A stretch of DNA of 48,223 bases from Marinitoga litoralis. Lineage in GTDB: Bacteria > Thermotogota > Thermotogae > Petrotogales > Petrotogaceae. Positions 37,591-48,223 of this stretch are shown here, one piece after another. A program made the position numbers and the translations under genes. The first letter of the stretch is position 1. Each line of letters begins with the position of its first letter. The notes under the pieces were generated by a model. It worked only from the letters and a program-made list of their open reading frames with translations. It was not told the DNA's origin and did no database searches. The stretch covers positions 1-48,223 of the forward strand of contig NZ_JAFBDI010000017.1 in NCBI RefSeq assembly GCF_016908145.1. Reading direction: 5' to 3'.

Positions 37591-38040
37591 ATGGATGCTT
37601 TAGGAAAAATATATAATGTAGCATCTATAGTTACTATGAATTCTAATAATAAATTAAATGGGATTACAGTTGCTTGGATTACCAGAGTATCAATAAAGCC
37701 TCCAATGATTGCTATTTCAATTGGCAAAAAACGTTATTCATATACTTTATTAGAAGAAACTGATAAATTTGGAGTTTGTATATTATCAAAAGAACAAAAA
37801 GAATTAGCCAAATTTTTTGGGAGTAAAAGTGGGAGAAATACTAACAAATTTGAAAACATTGATTATGAATTAACTAAAAATGGAATCCCAAAAATTAACG
37901 GTTCAGTTGCATTTTTTGAGTGTAAAATTGTTAATAAAGCAGATGCTGGCGATCATGTAATTTATATTGGAGAGGTTATCAATGAAGAATTATTAAAAAT
38001 CGAACAACCCTTATTATATGGAGAACATCAGTTATTATAA
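37591..38040 (+). CDS. Flavin reductase-like FMN-binding protein
   Basis: 149 residues. NGITVAWITRVSIKPPMIAISIGKKRYSY and a later GDHVIYIGEV match the flavin reductase-like domain family (FMN-binding split barrel). Typical role: NAD(P)H-dependent reduction of FMN or electron transfer to a partner. It follows the foldase gene by 8 bases with an AGGTGAT ribosome-binding site; the terminator at 38062-38096 closes the unit. On the short side (family 150-190). Confidence 0.88.
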   Translation: MDALGKIYNVASIVTMNSNNKLNGITVAWITRVSIKPPMIAISIGKKRYSYTLLEETDKFGVCILSKEQKELAKFFGSKSGRNTNKFENIDYELTKNGIPKINGSVAFFECKIVNKADAGDHVIYIGEVINEELLKIEQPLLYGEHQLL

Positions 38041-38061
38041 TTTAACTAAATAATATTTAGA

Positions 38062-38096
38062 AATAAACTGGGGTGTGTAATACACTCCAGTTTATT
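38062..38096 (+). terminator. Long terminator after the flavin reductase gene
   Basis: AATAAACTGGGGTGT pairs with ACACTCCAGTTTATT (one G-T pair) over loop GTAAT, then TTTT. Its outer arm AATAAACT...AGTTTATT recurs in the terminator after hsp20 (38761-38792). Confidence 0.9.
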
Positions 38097-38102
38097 TTTA
38101 TT

Positions 38103-38111
38103 TGTTATAAT
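38103..38111 (+). promoter_or_regulatory. Extended -10 promoter, possibly of hsp20
   Basis: TGTTATAAT seven bases after the terminator. If it drives hsp20 the leader would be about 190 bases, AU-rich and without an obvious reading frame. A nearer promoter cannot be excluded. Confidence 0.4.
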
Positions 38112-38244
38112 TTATCAGTTCAGAGTAAAGATTGCTATACAAATTAGTAAAAAATATATTTAGTATATTTATAATTATTATTTTTAAATTAATATAAAAC
38201 TTTTGTATATTGGAATAAAAATTTGAACCTAGAAAAAATTTTTT

Positions 38245-38258
38245 CGTCATAATTGACG
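38245..38258. promoter_or_regulatory. Inverted repeat CGTCA-TAAT-TGACG upstream of hsp20
   Basis: Perfect 5-base arms around TAAT, about 50 bases before the hsp20 ATG and next to an AAAAAATTTTTT palindrome (38233-38244). It is not CIRCE. Possible heat-shock operator. Confidence 0.35.
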
Positions 38259-38306
38259 GAAGCTGATGAAAAAGAAAAATTAAAAAATTTGAAAGGAGGG
38301 GATATC

Positions 38307-38762
38307 ATGAGCGAAATCAAAAGATATGAAAGAGGAGGAAATTTCTTCGAACCATTTGAAACATTAAAAAGGGAGATAGAAAGATTATTTGATGACTTTG
38401 GTGCTCTTGATATCTTCGAAAATCCTAAAGCTTATACTATGCCAAGTATAGATATATATGAAACAGATAAAGACATTGTTATCGAAGCCGATGTTCCAGG
38501 ATATAACAAAAAAGATATTAATATAAGATTAGATGATGATATTTTAACTATATCTGCTGAAAAGAAAGATGATAAAGAAGAAAAAGGAAGAAATTATATT
38601 AAAAGAGAAAGATATTTCGGAAAATTTGAAAGATCAATTAGATTACCTGACTATATAGATTTTGATAAAATCAAAGCAAAATTCAATGAAGGTGTTCTAA
38701 AAATAGAAATACCAAAATTACCAGAAAAAGCAAAGAAATTCAAACAAATTAATATTGACTAA
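38307..38762 (+). CDS. Hsp20 / alpha-crystallin family small heat-shock protein
   Basis: 151 residues from ATG 38307, which has AAAGGAGGGG upstream; the frame is open further but without a ribosome-binding site. The alpha-crystallin domain covers about 38-135 (PSIDIYETDKDIVIEADVPG through FNEGVLKIEIPK), and the conserved GVLKIEIPK motif is present. ATP-independent holdase that forms oligomers and protects unfolding proteins. Single-gene unit between two strong terminators. Confidence 0.95.
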   Translation: MSEIKRYERGGNFFEPFETLKREIERLFDDFGALDIFENPKAYTMPSIDIYETDKDIVIEADVPGYNKKDINIRLDDDILTISAEKKDDKEEKGRNYIKRERYFGKFERSIRLPDYIDFDKIKAKFNEGVLKIEIPKLPEKAKKFKQINID

Positions 38763-38792
38763 TAAACTCCAGGAGTTTTCCTGGAGTTTATT
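38761..38792 (+). terminator. Terminator of hsp20
   Basis: AATAAACTCCAGGA, loop GTTT, TCCTGGAGTTTATT: a perfect 14-base stem starting inside the stop codon, followed by a T-rich tail. Confidence 0.92.
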
Positions 38793-38799
38793 ATTTTTA

Positions 38800-38826
38800 T
38801 GTTATAATATCTATGTTTGTTATAAT
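38800..38826 (+). promoter_or_regulatory. Two tandem extended -10 elements before the sensor/cyclase pair
   Basis: TGTTATAAT occurs at 38800-38808 and again at 38818-38826, 18 bases apart. The second gives a leader of only about 20 bases to the ATG at 38853, which has a weak ribosome-binding site (GTGAAAAC). Confidence 0.55.
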
Positions 38827-38852
38827 ATCATATTAACAAAGTATGTGAAAAC

Positions 38853-39806
38853 ATGAAAAAATTATTATTAATAAAAATATTATTAATTTTGATTATTCTT
38901 ATTATCAATACACTTAATGCTCGTACATTAAACAAAATTCTTGATTCAGGATATTTAATAATTGGAATAAGAAATATACCAAGCGAGATAATATATCAAC
39001 CTGACAGCAACGAAAAAAAAGGATTTTGTTATGAATTAGCAGAAAGTTTCGCAGATTATCTTGATGTTAATTTAAAAATAAAAATTGTAGATTTTTTCGA
39101 AGATTATTGGTCTAAAGATGGAATTAATGTTTTAAAAAATAATGTTCTAGAAACACCTGATATTTATAATGATATAGATATTGTCGCTGATATAATAACT
39201 GTCACAGAAGAAAGAATGAAAATTGTTAATATGGTTCCTTTTATAGAAAACGCTGAATTATTTTTCACTAGAATAAATGAAAAAATAAATTCTCCTAAAG
39301 ATTTTATAGGAAAAAGAATTATCACAGCTGAAACTTTTAATTATTATAATACAGTTATAAATTTTTTAGAGACTAATAATCTTGATTATGTGATAAATAA
39401 AATCAAAATAGATGAAGTTGGTAATTTGAAATATATTAATAAATATACAGAGCCATCAAAAAATCAAGTTGAATTACTTATTTTTCCAAATAATTCAAAA
39501 TTTGATAGATATTCTTTTTATTTTCAGGTTATGTTAAATAATGCAGATATTAGTATACTTGACTCATTTTCTTTCTTTTCAAAAATATATAATACTCTAT
39601 CTATAAAAAATAATATAAAACCATTATTTATAGCTAATAACACGGGGTATTTATCTTTTTGTACTTCGTACGATACTCCAGAATTAAATAAATCCTTAGA
39701 AGAATTTATTACACATTTTAAAAACTCAAAAAGATTCGATTTATTATTTAAAAAATATACTGGCTTTGAATATAATGAATATTTAAAGCTATTAATGGTG
39801 AAATAA
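38853..39806 (+). CDS. Family 3 solute-binding-like protein paired with a diguanylate cyclase
   Basis: 317 residues. Signal peptide (about 1-23), then a family 3 (amino-acid type) periplasmic binding fold: [80 protein letters not shown]. No permease genes are nearby; the next gene, starting one base after its stop, encodes a membrane diguanylate cyclase. It therefore more likely presents a signal to that cyclase than feeds a transporter (inference from context). Confidence 0.82.
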
Positions 39807-39807
39807 T

Positions 39808-41315
39808 ATGAAATTGGAAAAAATACTACTAAAAAATATATTAATACTAAATTTAATAGTAGTTTTTCTTACTTTTCTTATTTCATTAGGATTAAGAATA
39901 AACTTATTAATAAAAGATGAAAATAATAATATTTATTTAACATCAAAAATGTTTGAAAAACACTTAAATGATGTGTTATCTAAAACAAATTCTTACAAAG
40001 AATACATTTTAAGTAAAAATGATATTATTTTTATTTTTGATAAAAATCCATTAATAAGAAAATTTTCTTTAAACGCCTTAGAAGAAGAGTTAAACAAAAT
40101 TATTAAAGATAATTCATTTATTAAATCTATAACAATAAAAAATAATAATGATATTGTATTAAAAGTAGGCTCTAATGAAAATATTGATATGCAGAATTCA
40201 TTTTCTCTATCAAATGACTGTTTTTGTATTAATATTATAAATAATATTAGCGATAATAAAATTCTTACCTTTACTTTAAACTTAAATAATATTTTTAGTG
40301 ATTTTATAAATTCAATATCCAGTTCTGTAGGGTTATTATTAAAATATAATAATAATTTTTATTCTTTAAAACCTAATACTATAGATTTAATAGAAAATAC
40401 AAATAAATATTTTATATCTAAACCACTAATATTTGATAATACAAATTTGTACATTTTCCGTAATAAAAGCATTATATATAATGCCATATTAAATTATTTA
40501 TTCTTTTTCCTTATAATTTTTTCTATTTCATTTATTATTGTATTTTTCATTTCTAAAAAAATCGCAAATAAAATTACTACACCAATAAATAATATCACCG
40601 ATACAATTAGTGATTATAAAAATTTTAAAAACTTTATTCCTATTGATATAAATAAATTTTCAGAGTATGAAGTTATAACCTTAGCAGAAAAATTTAATAA
40701 AATGGGGTTAGAATTAAAAAATTATATTCAAAATATGGAAGATTTAGTTTTAAAAAGAACTCAAAAAATTGAAGAACAAAATTTGAATTTAGAATTATTA
40801 AATAAAAAACTTAGGAAAATATCTATAACAGATGAATTAACTTCATTGTATAATAGACATTTTTTCAATGAAATGTTTATAAAAGCTTATAAATTAGCCT
40901 ATAGAGAAAAATTATATATTAATTTTGCAATACTTGATATTGATCATTTTAAAAATATTAATGATACATACGGGCATTTAGCTGGTGATTATTGTTTAAA
41001 AGAATTAGGAAAAATTACCAAAAATCATTTTAACAGAGAAAATGATATGATATTTAGATATGGTGGAGAAGAATTTGTTATATATTATCTTTCAAAAGAA
41101 TCAACTAATTTCGATAAAAGTCTTGATCTTTAAGAATAGATATCCAAAATAATTTATTTAATTATGATGGTTTTGATATTAAATTTACTGTTAGTATAGG
41201 TGCAATTTCAAAAATACCTGATACAAATAAATATGAAAAATTCATTATGCTTGCAGACAACAACTTATATAAATCTAAAAATTCTGGAAGAAATAAATTA
41301 ACAATATCATATTAA
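39808..41315 (+). pseudogene. Membrane diguanylate cyclase with a frame break in the GGDEF domain
   Basis: The first 441 codons encode a transmembrane helix (about 9-32), an extracytoplasmic region (about 33-225), a second helix (about 226-250), a HAMP-like linker, a coiled coil and a GGDEF domain with GGEEF at 419-423 and I-site REND (410-413). Translation then stops at 41131. The missing end of the domain (FTVSIGA and ADNNLYKSKNSGRNKL) is encoded in the -1 frame from about 41130 to the stop at 41313-41315. One extra T in CTTTAAG, or a -1 shift there, would restore a protein of about 502 residues. Mutation, sequence error and programmed frameshift are all possible. Confidence 0.75.
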
Positions 41316-41339
41316 AAAAAGCTCCCAAACGGGAGCTTT
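41316..41339. terminator. Terminator between the cyclase and rpsO
   Basis: AAAGCTCCC (41318-41326), loop AAAC, GGGAGCTTT (41331-41339). The A7 run on its left gives a T7 tail on the minus strand, so it is chiefly the rpsO terminator; on the plus strand the tail is weak. Confidence 0.85.
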
Positions 41340-41342
41340 GAA

Positions 41343-41618
41343 TTATCCTCTTATTCCTAATTTTGCAATTAATTCTTTATATACTTCTGGTCTTTCTTTT
41401 CTTAAGTATTTTAACATTTTTCTTCTTTTACCAACCATTTTCATTAATCCTCTTCTAGAGTGGAAATCTTTTGGATGTGTTTTTAAGTGTTCTGTTAAAT
41501 GTCTAATTCTTGCTGTTAATAATGCGATTTGAACTTCTACAGAACCTGTGTCTTTTTCATTAATTTTAAATTCTTCAATAACTTTGTTTTTAATTTCTGG
41601 ATCTAATCCTCTTGACAT
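41343..41618 (-). CDS. rpsO: Ribosomal protein S15
   Basis: 91 residues, full length for the family. [49 protein letters not shown] is the S15 signature region. S15 binds 16S rRNA early in assembly of the small subunit. The start has GGAGG (41632-41628). It is a single-gene unit with its own promoter and a long hairpin in the leader, and lies next to a hairpin terminator. Confidence 0.98.
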
Positions 41619-41643
41619 ATTTCTCTACCTCCGTATTCATATT

Positions 41644-41685
41644 CCTTTAGCCAAGATAAGGTCTTTGCCATTATCTGAGCTAAGG
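41644..41685 (-). promoter_or_regulatory. Hairpin leader of rpsO, candidate S15 autoregulatory element
   Basis: On the minus strand CCTTAGC (41685-41679) pairs with GCTAAAGG (41651-41644, one bulged A), and AGATAA pairs with TTATCT further in, around a loop with another GG/CC pair. The element starts at the predicted 5' end of the mRNA and ends 11 bases before the Shine-Dalgarno. In several phyla S15 represses its own mRNA through such structures. Confidence 0.5.
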
Positions 41686-41692
41686 TGTTTAT

Positions 41693-41720
41693 ATTATAAT
41701 ATATTTTTGTTAAAAATCAA
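41693..41720 (-). promoter_or_regulatory. Promoter of rpsO
   Basis: On the minus strand TTGATT (41720-41715), 16 bases, TATAAT (41698-41693). Start of transcription near 41686. Confidence 0.7.
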
Positions 41721-41731
41721 TTTATATTTGT

Positions 41732-42610
41732 TTAAACCTCAACTTCCCCGTCAAATTCTGGGTCTAATGCATATTTTAAAGAAATTATTGCTACTTCTAA
41801 TTGTTCTTCATCAGGCTCTGAAGTAGTTATTTTTTGTAAAGCTAATCCTGGCCAAGCTAATATTTTCCCAATCCATGTATCAATAATTTTTGCTGTAAAT
41901 CTTTGAAATTCATATGCAACTCCAGCAACTAAAGGTAATAATATTATTCTTGTAACTATCTTTTGCATTAATGATGTGTAACCTAGTGCACCTGTTATAG
42001 AAAATACTATAATTGATGCAAAAACAGTTATAATTAAAAAACTAGTACCACATCTCGGATGAAGAGTTGTATATGTTTTTGCGTTGTTAACATTCAATTC
42101 TTTTCCATCTTCATAGTTGTATACCGTCTTATGCTCCGCACCGTGATATTCAAATACTCTTTTTATATCTTTAAAAAATGAAATAACCCAAATATATAAT
42201 ATAACAAATATAGCTCTTATTACACCCTCGGTAAAAGAAAACCAAAACTCACTTTGTATAGGAAACAATTTAGTTAAAAACATTGGCCCTAATCCAAATC
42301 CACCTATAGCAAATAAAAACGCTAATAATATTGATATTACCATATCTTTTTTTGTTATTTCTTCTTCACCAGAAACATTTGCGGAATATGATAATGCTTC
42401 CATACCTATTATCATTGCTTTTAATAATACAAAAAAACCTCTAATAAATGGTATTTTTTCTAAAAATCCAAATGTTCTTTCCTTTAATCTTTTTATCTGT
42501 ATTTTCTTATCAGGCCTTCTTACAGCTACAACTGTATTTATACCTTTCATCATTACTCCTTCAATAACAGCCTGACCGCCTACATATTTAGGCATTTTCT
42601 CGTTTTTCAT
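41732..42610 (-). CDS. DUF1385 membrane protein (YqhQ-like)
   Basis: 292 residues. N-terminal YVGGQAVIEGVMMKG, the middle EYHGAEHKTVYNYEDGKELNVNNAKTYTTLHPRCGTSFL and about four transmembrane helices are typical of the DUF1385 family (B. subtilis YqhQ). The His/Cys-containing central motifs suggest metal binding, but no function is established. The start ATG at 42610 has GGAGG 7 bases upstream and overlaps the end of the 84-residue gene by 23 bases, so translation is coupled. Confidence 0.9.
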   Translation of the reverse strand: MKNEKMPKYVGGQAVIEGVMMKGINTVVAVRRPDKKIQIKRLKERTFGFLEKIPFIRGFFVLLKAMIIGMEALSYSANVSGEEEITKKDMVISILLAFLFAIGGFGLGPMFLTKLFPIQSEFWFSFTEGVIRAIFVILYIWVISFFKDIKRVFEYHGAEHKTVYNYEDGKELNVNNAKTYTTLHPRCGTSFLIITVFASIIVFSITGALGYTSLMQKIVTRIILLPLVAGVAYEFQRFTAKIIDTWIGKILAWPGLALQKITTSEPDEEQLEVAIISLKYALDPEFDGEVEV

Positions 42611-42842
42611 TACTTATCCTCCTCAATATCTCTTCAGCAATATTTTCCTCAGTTATTACAAAATAGAAAGTCAAAGCTTCTTTGTCAACTGATTTTTCTT
42701 TTTTTAATACAAAAGAAGCTTTTTTTCTAATATTCATTCTTTCTTCCATATTTAATTTAGAGATTTCCTGAACTATAGAAAAAAGCCGCGCGTCTTTCAT
42801 ACACGCGGTAACTATTTCATTAATAACTTTATCATCAATCAC
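42588..42842 (-). CDS. 84-residue protein of unknown function
   Basis: Starts with GTG at 42842 with AGGAG 6 bases upstream, just after spoVS. Helical, charged, cytoplasmic; no family recognised (MEERMNIRKKASFVLKKEK in the middle, EENIAEEILRRI near the end). Codons 12-20 are unusually GC-rich because the DNA there forms a terminator-like hairpin (42786-42808). It overlaps the DUF1385 gene and forms a unit with it and spoVS. Confidence 0.7.
   Translation of the reverse strand: MIDDKVINEIVTACMKDARLFSIVQEISKLNMEERMNIRKKASFVLKKEKSVDKEALTFYFVITEENIAEEILRRISNEKRENA
42779..42808 (-). promoter_or_regulatory. Terminator-like hairpin inside the 84-residue gene
   Basis: On the minus strand CCGCGTGT (42808-42801), loop ATGAAAG, ACGCGCGG (42793-42786), then C and T6. 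An 8-base GC-rich stem with one G-T pair followed by a T run is an intrinsic terminator by any criterion, yet it lies about 35-60 bases inside a coding region. Confidence 0.6.
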
Positions 42843-42851
42843 TATAGTCTC

Positions 42852-43136
42852 CTATGCTTCTGTTTCTTCTTCAGTAACTTCTGCAAATACTCTAAATTTA
42901 ATTCCTGTTCTTTTTTCATCCCCTACATTTACTTCAACAAATCCAGGTACTACAAATAGTTTTTTACCACGAGTTTCTACAAATCTTCTTGCAATTGCAA
43001 TTGCTTTAACAGCTTGATTAACTGCTCCCGCCCCTATTGCTTGAATTTCCACTTCATCTGTTTTACTTAATACTCCTGCAATTGCTCCAGCTACTTTGTT
43101 TGGTGATGAAGAATGTCCAACTTTTAAAACTTCCAT
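42852..43136 (-). CDS. spoVS: SpoVS family protein
   Basis: 94 residues starting at MEVLKVGHSSSPNKV, the usual start of the family; the frame is open to 43202 but the upstream part contains the promoter (43174-43202). VAGAIAGVLSKTDEVEIQAIGAGAVNQAVKAIAIAR is the family core. SpoVS is a small Alba-like fold protein, probably nucleic-acid-binding; in Bacillus it affects sporulation, but it is conserved in non-sporulating Thermotogota, where its role is unknown. Downstream lies the 84-residue gene after 9 bases. The ribosome-binding site (AAGGGGG) is rather far, 11 bases. Confidence 0.93.
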   Translation of the reverse strand: MEVLKVGHSSSPNKVAGAIAGVLSKTDEVEIQAIGAGAVNQAVKAIAIARRFVETRGKKLFVVPGFVEVNVGDEKRTGIKFRVFAEVTEEETEA

Positions 43137-43173
43137 GGATTGTTCAGCCCCCTTTATAACAATTTCTAAGTCT

Positions 43174-43202
43174 ATTTTACCATAATTTTTAACTTTTTTC
43201 AA
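43174..43202 (-). promoter_or_regulatory. Promoter of spoVS
   Basis: On the minus strand TTGAAA (43202-43197), 17 bases, TAAAAT (43179-43174). Start near 43167, i.e. inside the open frame before MEVLKV, which supports the shorter start. Confidence 0.65.
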
Positions 43203-43210
43203 ATTATATA

Positions 43211-43241
43211 AATAATTAGCCAGAAAAACTGGCTAATTATT
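43211..43241 (-). terminator. Hairpin after korA
   Basis: AATAATTAGCCAG and CTGGCTAATTATT form a perfect 13-base stem over loop AAAAA. It closes the oadB-ferredoxin-korA operon just after the korA stop; the T tail on the minus strand is mixed A/T. Confidence 0.8.
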
Positions 43242-43254
43242 TAAGACTAATTAC

Positions 43255-44415
43255 TTAAAATTCTATTATTCTTCTCCATACAGATGTAATTGCATCCAAA
43301 ATTTCTTTAGGAGTTATTAAATCTCCATCTACTTTATTTACCAATTCTATATGCTTTCCAAACTTATTAATTCTTGATATTTCTAAAGCCATTTGCCCTA
43401 AGTTCATTTCTGCTACTATTACTGATTGAGATTTTCTTAAAATATTCTTCATTTTTGATACAGGGAAAGGCCAAATTGTTATTGGTTTAAATAATCCCAC
43501 TGGAATTCTATCTTCTCTAGCCATTTTAACTGCTTTCATAGCACTTCTTGCAACTGTTCCATACGCTACAACAATAATTTCAGCATCATCTGTCATGTAT
43601 TCATCATATATTGCAATTTCTTCTGTGTATAATCTTATTTTTGAATCTAAATGTTTAATAACTTTATCTGCTACATCTGTAGAACCTACAGGGAACCCTG
43701 TTTCATCATGAACTAATCCTGAGACGTGGAATCTAGCTTTCCCCATTTCAATTAATGGATTAACAGGATAATTTTCTTCTTGGAAACCAAAAGGATGAAA
43801 TAACTCTTCATCTTCAATTTCTGAATCACTTAATCTTTGTATAATTTCTGGATTCTCATATTCATCACTTAAGTAAAAACTTTCTCTCATATGACCTAAT
43901 GTTTCATCCATAACTAAAACAACAGGTGTTCTATATTTTTCTGCATAATTAAATGCTTTAATAGTATATTTATATGCTTCTTCAACTGTTGAGGGATATA
44001 ATGCTATTATTTGTTGATCTCCGTGTCTTCCCCATCTAATTTGCATAATATCGCCTTGAGAAGGTTTAGTTGGGAGTCCTGTACTTGGACCACCCCTCAT
44101 AACATCAACGAAAACACATGGTGTTTCTGTCATAATTGCATATCCTAAAGCCTCTTGCATTAAACTAAAACCAGGGCCACTTGTAGCTGTCATAGATTTT
44201 ACACCCGCTAATGATGCTCCTATTATTGCTGCCGCACTTGCTATTTCATCTTCCATTTGAATAAATCTTCCACCAACTTTAGGTAATTCTCTAGCCATTA
44301 CTTCAGCTACTTCGGTAGAAGGAGTAATTGGGTATCCAGCATAAAATCTACATCCAGCTTTTATAGCTGCTAATGCTACTGCTTCATTTCCTTGCATAAA
44401 TACAATTCTACCCAT
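43255..44415 (-). CDS. korA: 2-oxoacid:ferredoxin oxidoreductase alpha subunit (KorA-like)
   Basis: About 386 residues from ATG 44415, which has AAGGTGG 9 bases upstream; a TTG at 44424 lies directly on that site. GNEAVALAAIKAGCRFYAGYPITPSTEVAE, the TSGPGFSLMQEALGYA motif and RGGPSTGLPTKPSQGD are diagnostic of the alpha subunit of ferredoxin-dependent 2-oxoglutarate/2-oxoacid oxidoreductases, which convert 2-oxoacids and CoA to acyl-CoA with reduced ferredoxin. The TPP-binding beta subunit (GDGD motif) is not in the window: a hairpin follows at once. It overlaps the ferredoxin gene by 8 bases. Confidence 0.92.
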   Translation of the reverse strand: MGRIVFMQGNEAVALAAIKAGCRFYAGYPITPSTEVAEVMARELPKVGGRFIQMEDEIASAAAIIGASLAGVKSMTATSGPGFSLMQEALGYAIMTETPCVFVDVMRGGPSTGLPTKPSQGDIMQIRWGRHGDQQIIALYPSTVEEAYKYTIKAFNYAEKYRTPVVLVMDETLGHMRESFYLSDEYENPEIIQRLSDSEIEDEELFHPFGFQEENYPVNPLIEMGKARFHVSGLVHDETGFPVGSTDVADKVIKHLDSKIRLYTEEIAIYDEYMTDDAEIIVVAYGTVARSAMKAVKMAREDRIPVGLFKPITIWPFPVSKMKNILRKSQSVIVAEMNLGQMALEISRINKFGKHIELVNKVDGDLITPKEILDAITSVWRRIIEF

Positions 44416-44626
44416 TATTTTCAACCACCTTTTCCATTACATTAATAGCAATATCTGGGCACAATCTTTCACACATTAAACAACCAATACATTTATCTAT
44501 ATCTTGTACAATTGGTTTTCCTAATTCTGCTGACCCTAATGTTTGGGTAGGACACACATTATAACAAATACCACATTTTTTACATAATGTATAGTTAATT
44601 TCAACAGTATAGCTTTTTTTCGCCAT
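44408..44626 (-). CDS. korD: 2[4Fe-4S] ferredoxin-type delta subunit
   Basis: 72 residues with two cluster motifs: CKKCGICYNVCP (15-26) and CIGCLMCERLCP (46-57). This is the small ferredoxin-like subunit of oxoacid:ferredoxin oxidoreductases, passing electrons from the TPP site to soluble ferredoxin. The gene lies directly before korA and 11 bases after the Na+ pump gene; ribosome-binding site GAGGTGAG. Confidence 0.93.
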   Translation of the reverse strand: MAKKSYTVEINYTLCKKCGICYNVCPTQTLGSAELGKPIVQDIDKCIGCLMCERLCPDIAINVMEKVVENNG

Positions 44627-44637
44627 TTTCTCACCTC

Positions 44638-45777
44638 TTAAGATAAAATTGATAAAAATACACCAGCTGCAACTGCTGAACCTATAACTCCAGCAACATT
44701 AGGTCCCATAGCATGCATTAATATAAAATTACTTGGATCTTCTGATTGAGCTACAGTTTGCGCAACTCTTGCTGAATCAGGAACAGCAGAAACACCTGCA
44801 GCTCCTATTAAAGGATTAATTTTATTTTTAGTAAATAAATTCATTAATTTAGCAAAGAATATACCAGAAATCATAGCAATAATAAAGGCTACTGCTCCCA
44901 ATAAAAATATTTTTAAACTAGTTGGTTTTAAAAACACATCTGCTCTTGCTGTACTACCAACAGATAACATCAATAATATAGTAACTGAATCTAAAATAAA
45001 TCTTGATGCAGCTTCTGCTAATCTTTTTGTAACTCCAGATTCTTTAAGTAAATTTCCTAACATTAAAAGTCCCACTAAAGATAATGCTTTTGGAACTAAT
45101 AATGCAACAACAATAGTTGTAGCGATTGGGAAAATAATTTTTTCTTTTTGACTAACTTGCCTCATTCTTTTCATTCTTATTTTTCTTTCTTCTTTAGTTG
45201 TTAATAGTTTTGACACTGGTGGTTGTAAAATTGGAATTAAAGCAATATATGAATAAGCTGCTATTGCTATTATAGCTAATAATTCTGGTGCAAACTTTGA
45301 TGCTAAATATATTGATGTAGGACCATCCGCACCACCAATAATAGCTATAGAAGCTGCACTGTGTATATCAAAACCTAATAAATTAGCAACAATAAATGTT
45401 CCAAAAATACCCACTTGAGCTGCTGCGCCTAAAAATATTAAACGTGGATCAGCTATTAAATAAGAAAAATCAGTTAATGCACCTATTCCTAAAAATATTA
45501 AAGGAGGATAAATACCTAAAAACATTCCTCTTTGGATATACCATAATAAACCACCAACTTGATCTCCAGTAGGAGGATTTAATAATCCAGTTATTTCTGG
45601 TGGGATATTTGCTAATATAATACCAAAACCAATTGGTATTAAAAGCAAGGGCTCTGCATGTTTTACAATTGCTACATAAATAAGCAATGATCCTATAAAT
45701 AACATTAATATGTGTTGCCAAGTAAAGTATGCAAATCCACTATTAGAAAAAAATGCTATAAAATTTGATAAATCCAT
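44638..45777 (-). CDS. Na+-translocating decarboxylase beta subunit (OadB/GcdB/MmdB type)
   Basis: 379 residues, about 10 transmembrane helices. GGADGPTSIYLASKFAPELL with the conserved Asp, LMLGNLLKESGVTKRLAEAA, LSVGSTARADVFL and GAAGVSAVPDSARVAQ are family signatures. The beta subunit decarboxylates the biotin-bound carboxyl group and pumps Na+ out of the cell. The partner alpha (carboxyltransferase), biotin carrier and gamma subunits are not nearby. First gene of the operon with ferredoxin and korA. Which acid is decarboxylated cannot be told from this subunit. Confidence 0.94.
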   Translation of the reverse strand: MDLSNFIAFFSNSGFAYFTWQHILMLFIGSLLIYVAIVKHAEPLLLIPIGFGIILANIPPEITGLLNPPTGDQVGGLLWYIQRGMFLGIYPPLIFLGIGALTDFSYLIADPRLIFLGAAAQVGIFGTFIVANLLGFDIHSAASIAIIGGADGPTSIYLASKFAPELLAIIAIAAYSYIALIPILQPPVSKLLTTKEERKIRMKRMRQVSQKEKIIFPIATTIVVALLVPKALSLVGLLMLGNLLKESGVTKRLAEAASRFILDSVTILLMLSVGSTARADVFLKPTSLKIFLLGAVAFIIAMISGIFFAKLMNLFTKNKINPLIGAAGVSAVPDSARVAQTVAQSEDPSNFILMHAMGPNVAGVIGSAVAAGVFLSILS

Positions 45778-45809
45778 AATATTTCCTCCTTGAATTATTT
45801 TTCATAGTA

Positions 45810-45838
45810 ATTATAATACTTTATTTCACATAATTCAA
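45810..45838 (-). promoter_or_regulatory. Promoter of the oadB-ferredoxin-korA operon
   Basis: On the minus strand TTGAAT (45838-45833), 17 bases, TATAAT (45815-45810). Start near 45803; leader about 26 bases with AAGGAGGA before the ATG. Confidence 0.8.
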
Positions 45839-45873
45839 GACACATTCTTAATAGTTATACTTAAATAAAGTAT

Positions 45874-45904
45874 AAAAAGAAGGGCTTCAACGCCCTACTT
45901 TTTA
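45874..45904. terminator. Terminator after manA
   Basis: AGGGC (45881-45885) and GCCCT (45892-45896) over a 6-base loop, extended by AAAAAG/CTTTTT arms around an A-A mismatch. Gives a T5 tail on the minus strand. Confidence 0.8.
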
Positions 45905-45935
45905 TCTAATCGTGTTTATTTAAATATTTTAACTT

Positions 45936-46736
45936 TTAAAGAAAAAATAACATTCCTTCTTCTGATATATTATATTCTACATTATGAGGAATTATTATTG
46001 TTCTATAATCTTTTAATGAAACATATATTGCAAACCCTTTAATAATAACTTCTTTTACTTTTCTTATATTAAAATACTGAGTTTTAAATTCTATAGGAGA
46101 ATTAACTATTACATATGGACTATCTTTTAGTACTTTTTTCCCTTTTTCTACATGAATTTCTCTTGGTCTTCCCCAATCATATAATCTATATGTTAAGTCA
46201 GATGTTTGTTGTATTTCAAGCAACATAGAGTTAGGCCCCAATGTATGCACTACTCCTGCTGGAATAAATAACAAATCTTCTTTTTTTAATTTCATTGGTT
46301 TAAAAAACTCGTCCCAATTTTGAGTTTCTATTGCTTTTCTATTATTTTCAATATCATTGGAAATAAATATCTCATTTGATTCATTCAAAAAATACCATGC
46401 TTCAGTTTTCCCCCATGGTTCATTTTCTAATTCTTTTGCATATTTATCATCTGGATGTACTTGAATTGAAAGCCATTGTGTTGTAGATATTAATTTTAAT
46501 AATAATGGAATTCTTGGAATATCTTTCCCTATTAATTCTTTTATTATTCCCGATGGTTTTCCATATTTTTTTCCACTTTCTAATCCTATTAATTCTGTTT
46601 CATTACCTTGAACACCAGAAAACAACCATACTTCACCTATTTTATCCATATCTTTTTTATTAAATATATTATTTAATCTTTCATCTCCCCATACTTTTTC
46701 TACAAAAATTGGTTTAGATAGTAATGCTTCTTTCAT
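45936..46736 (-). CDS. manA: Mannose-6-phosphate isomerase, class I
   Basis: 266 residues. Zinc ligands Q92 and H94 (QVHPDD), E112 (KTEAWY) and H164 (VVHTLG) are in place, and KPIFVEKVWGDERL opens the protein as in the short class I enzymes. It interconverts mannose-6-phosphate and fructose-6-phosphate. Shorter than the eukaryote-like forms, normal for the bacterial short type. It lies 45 bases downstream of the MFS gene on the same strand; ribosome-binding site GAGGTGAT. The upstream IS insertion may affect its transcription. Confidence 0.94.
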   Translation of the reverse strand: MKEALLSKPIFVEKVWGDERLNNIFNKKDMDKIGEVWLFSGVQGNETELIGLESGKKYGKPSGIIKELIGKDIPRIPLLLKLISTTQWLSIQVHPDDKYAKELENEPWGKTEAWYFLNESNEIFISNDIENNRKAIETQNWDEFFKPMKLKKEDLLFIPAGVVHTLGPNSMLLEIQQTSDLTYRLYDWGRPREIHVEKGKKVLKDSPYVIVNSPIEFKTQYFNIRKVKEVIIKGFAIYVSLKDYRTIIIPHNVEYNISEEGMLFFL

Positions 46737-46781
46737 TGTATCACCTCACATTTTTATATTTATTTCATATGCATATAATAA

Positions 46782-47912
46782 TCATTTTAACTTTTTTTGT
46801 TTTTTCCTTAAATTAAAAAGTATGAAAAATCCAATAATTGATATAACGCTCAATGTTAGATATGTTGTAATTGTTCCTTTTTCGTCCAATAATAATCCTA
46901 TTAATGGTGATAATAATGCAAAACTTAAATTAGCTACTAAACTTACCATAGAAATAACGGTAGCTCTATATTTATCCTCTACTTGATGATTAATATAGAA
47001 ATTCATAGTTGGTCTATCCATAGCTCTAACTATTTGTTGCAAAGCTAAAAAAAATATTGCCCATTTTGATACAAATATCGCCGGTAATATAAAACTCAAA
47101 AACATTAAAAAAATCAATGACAATAAAATTTTCCGTGGCCTTATCTCACTAAAAAGAGAAACCAAATACTTTGATGATATTGCAGCTATAATATTAAAAA
47201 TAAAAAATATAATACCAAAATATTGAATATCTATATCAACATGGGAAAAATATGGTTGATATAACCAAAACCCTGTTTTAAATAATAATCCCATGACCAA
47301 CGAATATATAATAGCCCATAATATTCTCGGTTTTTTTAATACTATATTAAAACTTTTAAACACATGGATAATATACTTATGCTCACTTTTTTCCCTATCT
47401 GTTTCAATAAACCCTAATGCTATTATTGATGCGATAATTACATTTAAAACACTAATCCAAAAAGGTAAAAAGGGATTATATTTATAAAGAAAACCACTTA
47501 AGATAGAACCAAAAGCTTGTGAAATAAATACATAAGAATTACTTATCCCTTCAATTTTTTGAAAATCTTTTTTTCTTCCTAATCCATTTAAACTTTCGTA
47601 TAATAATGCCGTATCAGCTCCACTTGATAATGTAATACCTATCCCAAAAATAATTTCTGCTATTGCAAATACAAAAAAGTTTTTAAAAACTATATATAAT
47701 ATCAATCCCAATGCAAAAAATATTCCTGATAAAAACAATGAAACTTTTCTAGAAAGTTTATCTGCTAAAGTACCTGTTGGAATTTCGAACAAGAATACAG
47801 AAATAGAAAATATTGATTGAAGCAACATAATTTCAGAATAATTTAGCCCTTTAAGTAGCATAAACGGTATTAAAATGGGACCAATTATTCTTAAATTTAA
47901 AAATAATCTATA
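46782..47912 (-). pseudogene. MFS transporter, 5' end removed by an IS21-family insertion
   Basis: The first ATG (47861) gives 359 residues with about 11 helices and the MFS loop motif GTLADKLSRK. However, the frame stays open upstream for 17 more codons up to the insertion-sequence edge at 47914, reading YRLFLNLRIIGPILIPF, a good first transmembrane helix. Only a few codons and the start are missing, so the gene was whole before the insertion. A shortened protein starting at 47861 would lack helix 1, and no good ribosome-binding site precedes that ATG. Probable drug or sugar efflux/uptake protein of unknown substrate. Confidence 0.75.
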
Positions 47913-47913
47913 T

Positions 47914-48223
<310 letters not shown>

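Follow-up and report, generated by a model that had tools for sequence, protein, structure and literature searches.

Most genomes of Petrotogaceae (Thermotogota) carry a terminator-like hairpin inside the codons of orf84, a small gene located between spoVS and a gene coding for a DUF1385 protein. The hairpin is found at codons 12–19 in 18 of the 21 genomes analyzed, belonging to 6 of 8 genera, and it is kept there by the choice of rare synonymous codons. We consider it likely that the hairpin and the T tract behind it form a partial intrinsic (Rho-independent) terminator overprinted on codons 12–22 of orf84, which would end most spoVS transcripts while letting some polymerases through.

A Terminator-Like Hairpin in the Reading Frame of orf84

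The reference locus is that of Marinitoga litoralis, which belongs to a heat-loving genus, and "the window" is the whole stretch of DNA analyzed, the 48,223 nucleotides of contig NZ_JAFBDI010000017.1 (Table 1). Genera are designated g1 (Marinitoga) to g8. The first-pass annotation, made from the letters of the window, had pointed to an 8-base GC-rich stem followed by T6 early in a gene of 84 codons, and this is confirmed, the stem-loop occupying nucleotides 35–57 of orf84. On the minus strand, the 5′ arm CCGCGTGT (42808–42801) is followed by the loop ATGAAAG (42800–42794), the 3′ arm ACGCGCGG (42793–42786), a single C, and T6. Six of the stem pairs are G-C, one is A-U, and one is G-U.

Table 1. 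Position of the hairpin and of the neighboring features in the window
Feature	Position	Strand	Remarks
Hairpin	42786..42808	(-)	8-pair stem and 7-nt loop; orf84 codons 12–19
T6 tract	42779..42784	(-)	one base past the stem; codons Leu20-Phe21-Ser22
orf84	42588..42842	(-)	host of the hairpin; 84 codons, GTG start; between spoVS and DUF1385
spoVS	42852..43136	(-)	5′ neighbor of orf84; PF04232, E = 8.3e-36
DUF1385 gene	41732..42610	(-)	PF07136, E = 1.1e-82; overlaps the end of orf84
Putative spoVS promoter	43174..43202	(-)	TTGAAA-17-TAAAAT, with TG ahead of the second hexamer
Terminator-like hairpin 3′ of the 2-oxoacid oxidoreductase gene	43209..43243	(-)	sets spoVS apart from the oxidoreductase gene
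Terminator-like hairpin 3′ of rpsO	41318..41339	(-)	from scanner and folding
AGGAGG in orf84	42618..42623	(-)	likely Shine-Dalgarno sequence of DUF1385, from its position

The minus-strand RNA of this region (42850–42775, 76 nt) folds with −21.9 kcal/mol, versus −11.6 ± 2.5 for shuffled sequences (z = −4.1, none of 200 as good), and a 41-nt piece carrying the hairpin folds with −13.2 kcal/mol (z = −2.2, 6 of 200 shuffles as good). A terminator scanner applied to positions 38000–48223 lists the orf84 hairpin first among 9 sites, whereas shuffled sequences give 2.6 sites on average. At 65 °C the stem of the window retains −6.2 kcal/mol, which is near the −7.3 kcal/mol of the rpsO terminator. A GC-rich stem (at least 5 pairs with a short loop) is thus present in the window, with 8 pairs, 6 of them G-C, and a loop of 7, and all 18 genomes with the hairpin have stems of 6–9 pairs. 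The T tract is likewise present, as T6 in the window and as at least 5 T among 8 positions in 18 of 18 genomes, including two genera in which this tail is weak (TTAATTTC in L011, CTTATTGT in L021). No Rfam covariance model (riboswitch, protein leader) matches the window at its gathering score.

Gene Order and the orf84 Protein

On the minus strand, the genes follow each other in the order 2-oxoacid oxidoreductase, hairpin, spoVS, orf84, DUF1385, rpsO, hairpin. The order spoVS-orf84-DUF1385 is found in all 21 Petrotogaceae loci, always with spoVS immediately 5′ of orf84, and in the 7 genomes of Marinitoga the interval between the oxidoreductase gene and spoVS systematically holds a terminator-like hairpin. 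A promoter-like site (TTGAAA or similar, 16–17 nucleotides, TAAAAT or similar) precedes spoVS in each of the 19 family loci surveyed, which are all but L009 and L019. By eye, a TG stands ahead of the spoVS −10 hexamer in the same 19 loci, with the form TATGGTAAAAT in 11 of them. The hairpin thus lies between co-oriented genes with a promoter-like site 5′ of spoVS, an arrangement in which spoVS, orf84, and DUF1385 would be carried by one shared transcript. The stop codon of spoVS and the start codon of orf84 overlap as ATGA in L010, L011, and L021, which represent three genera, and orf84 starts with GTG in all 7 Marinitoga genomes. The group carrying this spoVS is not known to sporulate.

Matches of orf84 occur in 40 of 61 genomes: in 21 of 21 Petrotogaceae, in none of 17 genomes from a second family in this order, and in 19 of 23 genomes from further families of the class. 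The window protein has no match in Pfam or NCBIfam at E = 0.001, and no PDB sequence family was found for it. Its AF2 model consists of five helices (pLDDT 88.7) and gives no Foldseek match to PDB at E ≤ 0.001; orf84 is hence predicted to be an all-helical protein. In each of the 30 loci read (L001–L030), a small orf84-like protein is encoded next to spoVS, DUF1385, or both.

Distribution of the Hairpin

Within the family, the hairpin is present in every genome of six genera, that is in 7/7 Marinitoga, 2/2 g8, 1/1 g2, 1/1 g6, 1/1 g5, and 6/6 g3, and it is absent from g4 (0/2) and g7 (0/1). These three stemless genomes have no replacement terminator between the start of spoVS and DUF1385, and therefore the function of the hairpin is dispensable. 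Outside the family, none of the 19 matches of orf84 has a stem at the same codons. On the tree of DUF1385, this distribution requires three changes, which may correspond to one gain and two losses.

The hairpin is not equally strong everywhere. The g3 genomes have a shorter stem (−8 to −10 kcal/mol at 37 °C, and just −2.6 to −3.5 kcal/mol at 65 °C), with the T run placed 2–3 nt further from it. The arm sequences CCGCGTG and CGCGG do not vary among the 12 long-stem genomes. T6 is found in 7 of 7 Marinitoga, including L007, where it persists despite the replacement of Leu20 by Ile (ATT), and it is kept in L018 through Phe-Phe. With one genome taken per genus, Leu20 is CTT in 5 of 6, for which codon usage gives P = 0.0025.

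Selection on Synonymous Codons

The first-pass annotation proposed checking relatives for a stem preserved at synonymous positions, and such preservation is strong as judged by codon rarity, synonymous recoding, codon identity, and the absence of the stem from the 19 outside matches. The window, or else one stretch per genome, supplied the codon usage (two stretches for the genome of L003; L009 was given that of L008). Among the Arg codons of the 12 long-stem genomes, CGG accounts for 0.3–1.9%, yet all 12 use it in the stem, and GCG, which makes up 1–12% of the Ala codons, codes for Ala13 in 18 of 18 genomes. The product of the frequencies of the stem codons ranges from 3e-10 to 2e-6 in the 12 genomes; in g3 (six genomes) it is higher, about 2e-4 to 2e-3. 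When the nine codons 12–20 are redrawn 5000 times from each genome's own usage, none of the recodings folds as well in the window, and 0–1 of 5000 do so across the 12 genomes with the CCGCG stem. The corresponding counts are 3, 7, 9, 20, 27, and 28 of 5000 for the six g3 genomes, and 282, 2495, and 5000 of 5000 for the three stemless ones.

Comparisons between genera, using one genome for each of six genera, give a similar picture. Stem codons are identical in 49 of 61 comparisons, versus 33.6 expected, whereas outside codons 12–22 of orf84 the figures are 323 of 541 codons and 294.9 expected, and third positions there are 36–64% identical. The longest identical run of orf84 in the six genera (L001, L008, L010, L011, L012, and L021) is the 6-nt AGGAGG, which serves as a positive control for selection at the DNA level. 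GCGTG of the stem ties for second with two other runs of 5 nt; without g3, the longest identical run is CCGCGTG. On this codon evidence, the hairpin is not a by-product of the orf84 protein.

Covariation adds less. Across the alignment 91.4% of the cells are paired, a value that none of 500 shuffles reaches, and the covariation score is matched by 3 of 500. The pairs changed on both sides number just one, which 265 of 500 shuffles equal, so that covariation is weak by this count. Formal covariation is thin because the core of the stem does not vary, and it is on codon choice that the case for the hairpin rests.

Alternative Explanations

That the stem merely follows from the amino-acid sequence has next to no probability. 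The peptide is partly shared outside the family, [AS]C..D being found in 18 of the 19 outside relatives and the fuller [AS]C..D.RL in 8, which would speak for coincidence; but none of the 19, the 8 with the fuller peptide included, has the stem, and the synonymous recodings contradict it as well. We regard this explanation as refuted. An inverted repeat acting as a DNA operator for a repressor is also very improbable. The arms are near-perfect palindromes in g5, g6, and g8, as one would expect of an operator. Against this, codon 18 is GCG (Ala) in Marinitoga, giving a G-U pair that in 7 of 7 genomes breaks the palindrome of the DNA and leaves the RNA stem intact; the codon is ACG (Thr), giving A-U, in g8, g6, g5, and g3. 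Moreover, each of the 7 Marinitoga genomes has a single copy of the core motif, and in each of the 6 g3 genomes the motif is limited to one place (where both strands match); the g5, g6, and g8 genomes have one or two further places. The genome of the window contains the 23-base hairpin sequence a single time, up to 3 mismatches being allowed, and a dispersed repeat or operator was rejected on this ground. A third possibility is that the stem serves protein binding, processing, or stability of the spoVS-orf84-DUF1385 mRNA and that the T run simply reflects the Leu-Phe residues. The invariance of the arm sequences in the 12 long-stem genomes, and the better preservation of the stem than of the tail in L011 and L021, agree with such an mRNA element. 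The tail itself makes it improbable, given its T content in all 18 genomes, the CTT at Leu20, and the persistence of T6 through the amino-acid changes of L007 and L018.

The remaining alternative is a translation-controlled attenuator, in which a ribosome on orf84 would open the hairpin and allow readthrough, and poor translation would stop transcription. The hairpin lies in the reading frame, and the GTG start of Marinitoga and the ATGA overlap in three other genera would suit such a control. So would a hairpin at codons 2–8 (GATGAT/ATCATC), which could hinder initiation and exceeds the codon null in 3 of 7 Marinitoga genomes (3, 15, and 7 of 3000 draws as good in L003, L004, and L005). This second hairpin is marginal in L011 (57 of 3000) and no better than the null in the other six genomes tested, among them the remaining four Marinitoga; with most of the tested genomes lacking the signal, it was rejected as a shared part of the system. 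There is, furthermore, no common partner upstream: the strongest upstream pairings available to the 5′ arm in 7 genomes (−6.2 to −11.9 kcal/mol) involve segments between −96 and −207, at no shared place, and an antiterminator or switch was rejected for this reason. According to PMC4824070, the terminator tR2 remained largely efficient in E. coli when placed 30 bp inside a second ORF, translation costing it only about 10%; the authors' explanation is that the ribosome does not catch up within the first 100 bp. The geometry is nearly that of orf84, the terminator or terminator-like hairpin standing in both about 30–35 nt past the start codon of the second cistron, with the difference that tR2 belongs to an artificial plasmid construct and the orf84 hairpin is natural and conserved across genera. 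PMC13323073 classes Thermotogota, at the level of the phylum, as runaway transcribers. Finally, terminator-like hairpins at these loci often lie very near stop codons: in 27 of 62, the first G or C is at most 12 nt from the stop, in a set for which ORFs were called mechanically and to which Marinitoga contributes 41, partly the same sites. The masking of the hairpin by ribosomes, put forward in the first-pass annotation, is therefore doubtful, an attenuator of this kind seems unlikely, and the hairpin probably works largely regardless of translation.

A Probable Partial Terminator behind spoVS

The partial terminator is the explanation we favor. RNA polymerase would initiate at the conserved spoVS promoter and transcribe spoVS, most polymerases would be released at the orf84 hairpin to leave a short and abundant spoVS mRNA with the hairpin as its 3′ end, and the fraction reading through would account for a lesser output of orf84 and DUF1385. 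The hairpin would stand early enough in orf84 for little interference by ribosomes. The element, its conservation, the order of the genes, and selection acting on the stem codons are all observed, and from them we infer termination, its efficiency, and a benefit through the ratio of spoVS to DUF1385. The hairpin is probably retained because it lets the cell make more of spoVS than of the genes that follow. The terminator would be inside orf84 because there is scant room between spoVS and orf84, as the ATGA overlap of three genera illustrates. The earlier suggestion of a control point, or of a normal end of the spoVS transcript, gains support from the way the stem is preserved at synonymous positions. 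Weighing against a terminator are the weak tails of L011 and L021, the shorter stem and more distant T run of g3, the stemless genera g4 and g7, and the thin covariation.

As DUF1385 overlaps the end of orf84, its expression would need readthrough unless it had its own promoter. A promoter-like site occurs inside orf84 near +150 in 18 of 19 loci, and it could serve DUF1385 separately, which would count against readthrough. Its −35 hexamer drifts, it is missing in L007, and codons 52–54 are less conserved than expected in Marinitoga; a separate promoter in orf84 was rejected on these grounds.

Release within orf84 has a further consequence. The released transcript would comprise the full spoVS and the first 20 or so codons of orf84, the latter lacking a stop, and every ribosome passing from spoVS into orf84 would run off its end, leading to ribosome rescue and mRNA decay. 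Translation of orf84, rather than readthrough of transcription, would then set how long the spoVS message lasts, and the GTG start of the 7 Marinitoga genomes would be a brake on run-off. Such a non-stop switch strikes us as a rather improbable account of the element.

Comparison with Known Systems

Terminators inside genes are usually regarded as noise or as undesirable. The orf84 hairpin, maintained in six genera via some of the rarest codons, suggests that selection can act over long periods to keep one within a coding sequence. With it, one could ask in a natural setting if ribosomes protect early terminators in a phylum classified as uncoupled, and what becomes of the mRNAs without a stop codon to which such a terminator necessarily gives rise. 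A search of open-access papers gave no title that deals with this hairpin. In the pyrBI attenuator, which the translation-controlled alternative would resemble, the ORF runs through the terminator, and control uses a leader peptide and pausing. Both systems have a terminator or terminator-like hairpin within a translated frame, but orf84 is a conserved gene and not a leader peptide of the trp or pyrBI kind, since it codes for a protein of 84 residues with the wide distribution described above.

Natural parallels are the internal intrinsic terminators that set the stoichiometry of ABC-importer operons in cellulolytic Clostridia, as described in PMC9045158. There too a stem-loop follows the promoter-proximal gene, the first gene being expected high and those downstream low, folding is below −10 kcal/mol, and the U tract is weaker in some members. 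The Clostridia terminators lie in long intergenic regions, whereas the hairpin studied here is within orf84, on the codons of the next gene, and is kept by rare synonymous codons. Transcripts ending in coding regions are also reported for E. coli in PMC7815308; those ORF-internal 3′ ends were found by RNA mapping, and the orf84 case comes from conservation alone.

Terminator-Like Sites Inside Other ORFs

The first-pass annotation held GC-rich stems to be confined to terminators. As a minor correction, both strands of 420 kb from 20 family genomes contain 34 ORF-internal terminator-like sites, compared with 105 elsewhere; GC-rich stems are therefore not restricted altogether to gene ends. Ten of the 34 are the orf84 hairpin itself, in a count that left out the g3 stems (by the energy cut), the L011 ORF of 79 codons (by the length cut), and L009. 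An ORF of 440–452 codons in three Marinitoga genomes (L035, L038, and L039) contains, some 1010–1040 nt from its start, the antisense terminator-like hairpin CTTCACCTTTTACAGGGTGAAG. Two g3 genomes (L044 and L046) have in common an ORF-internal hairpin, TCAGCATTAC...GTGGTGCTGA, with the tail AAATTTTT.
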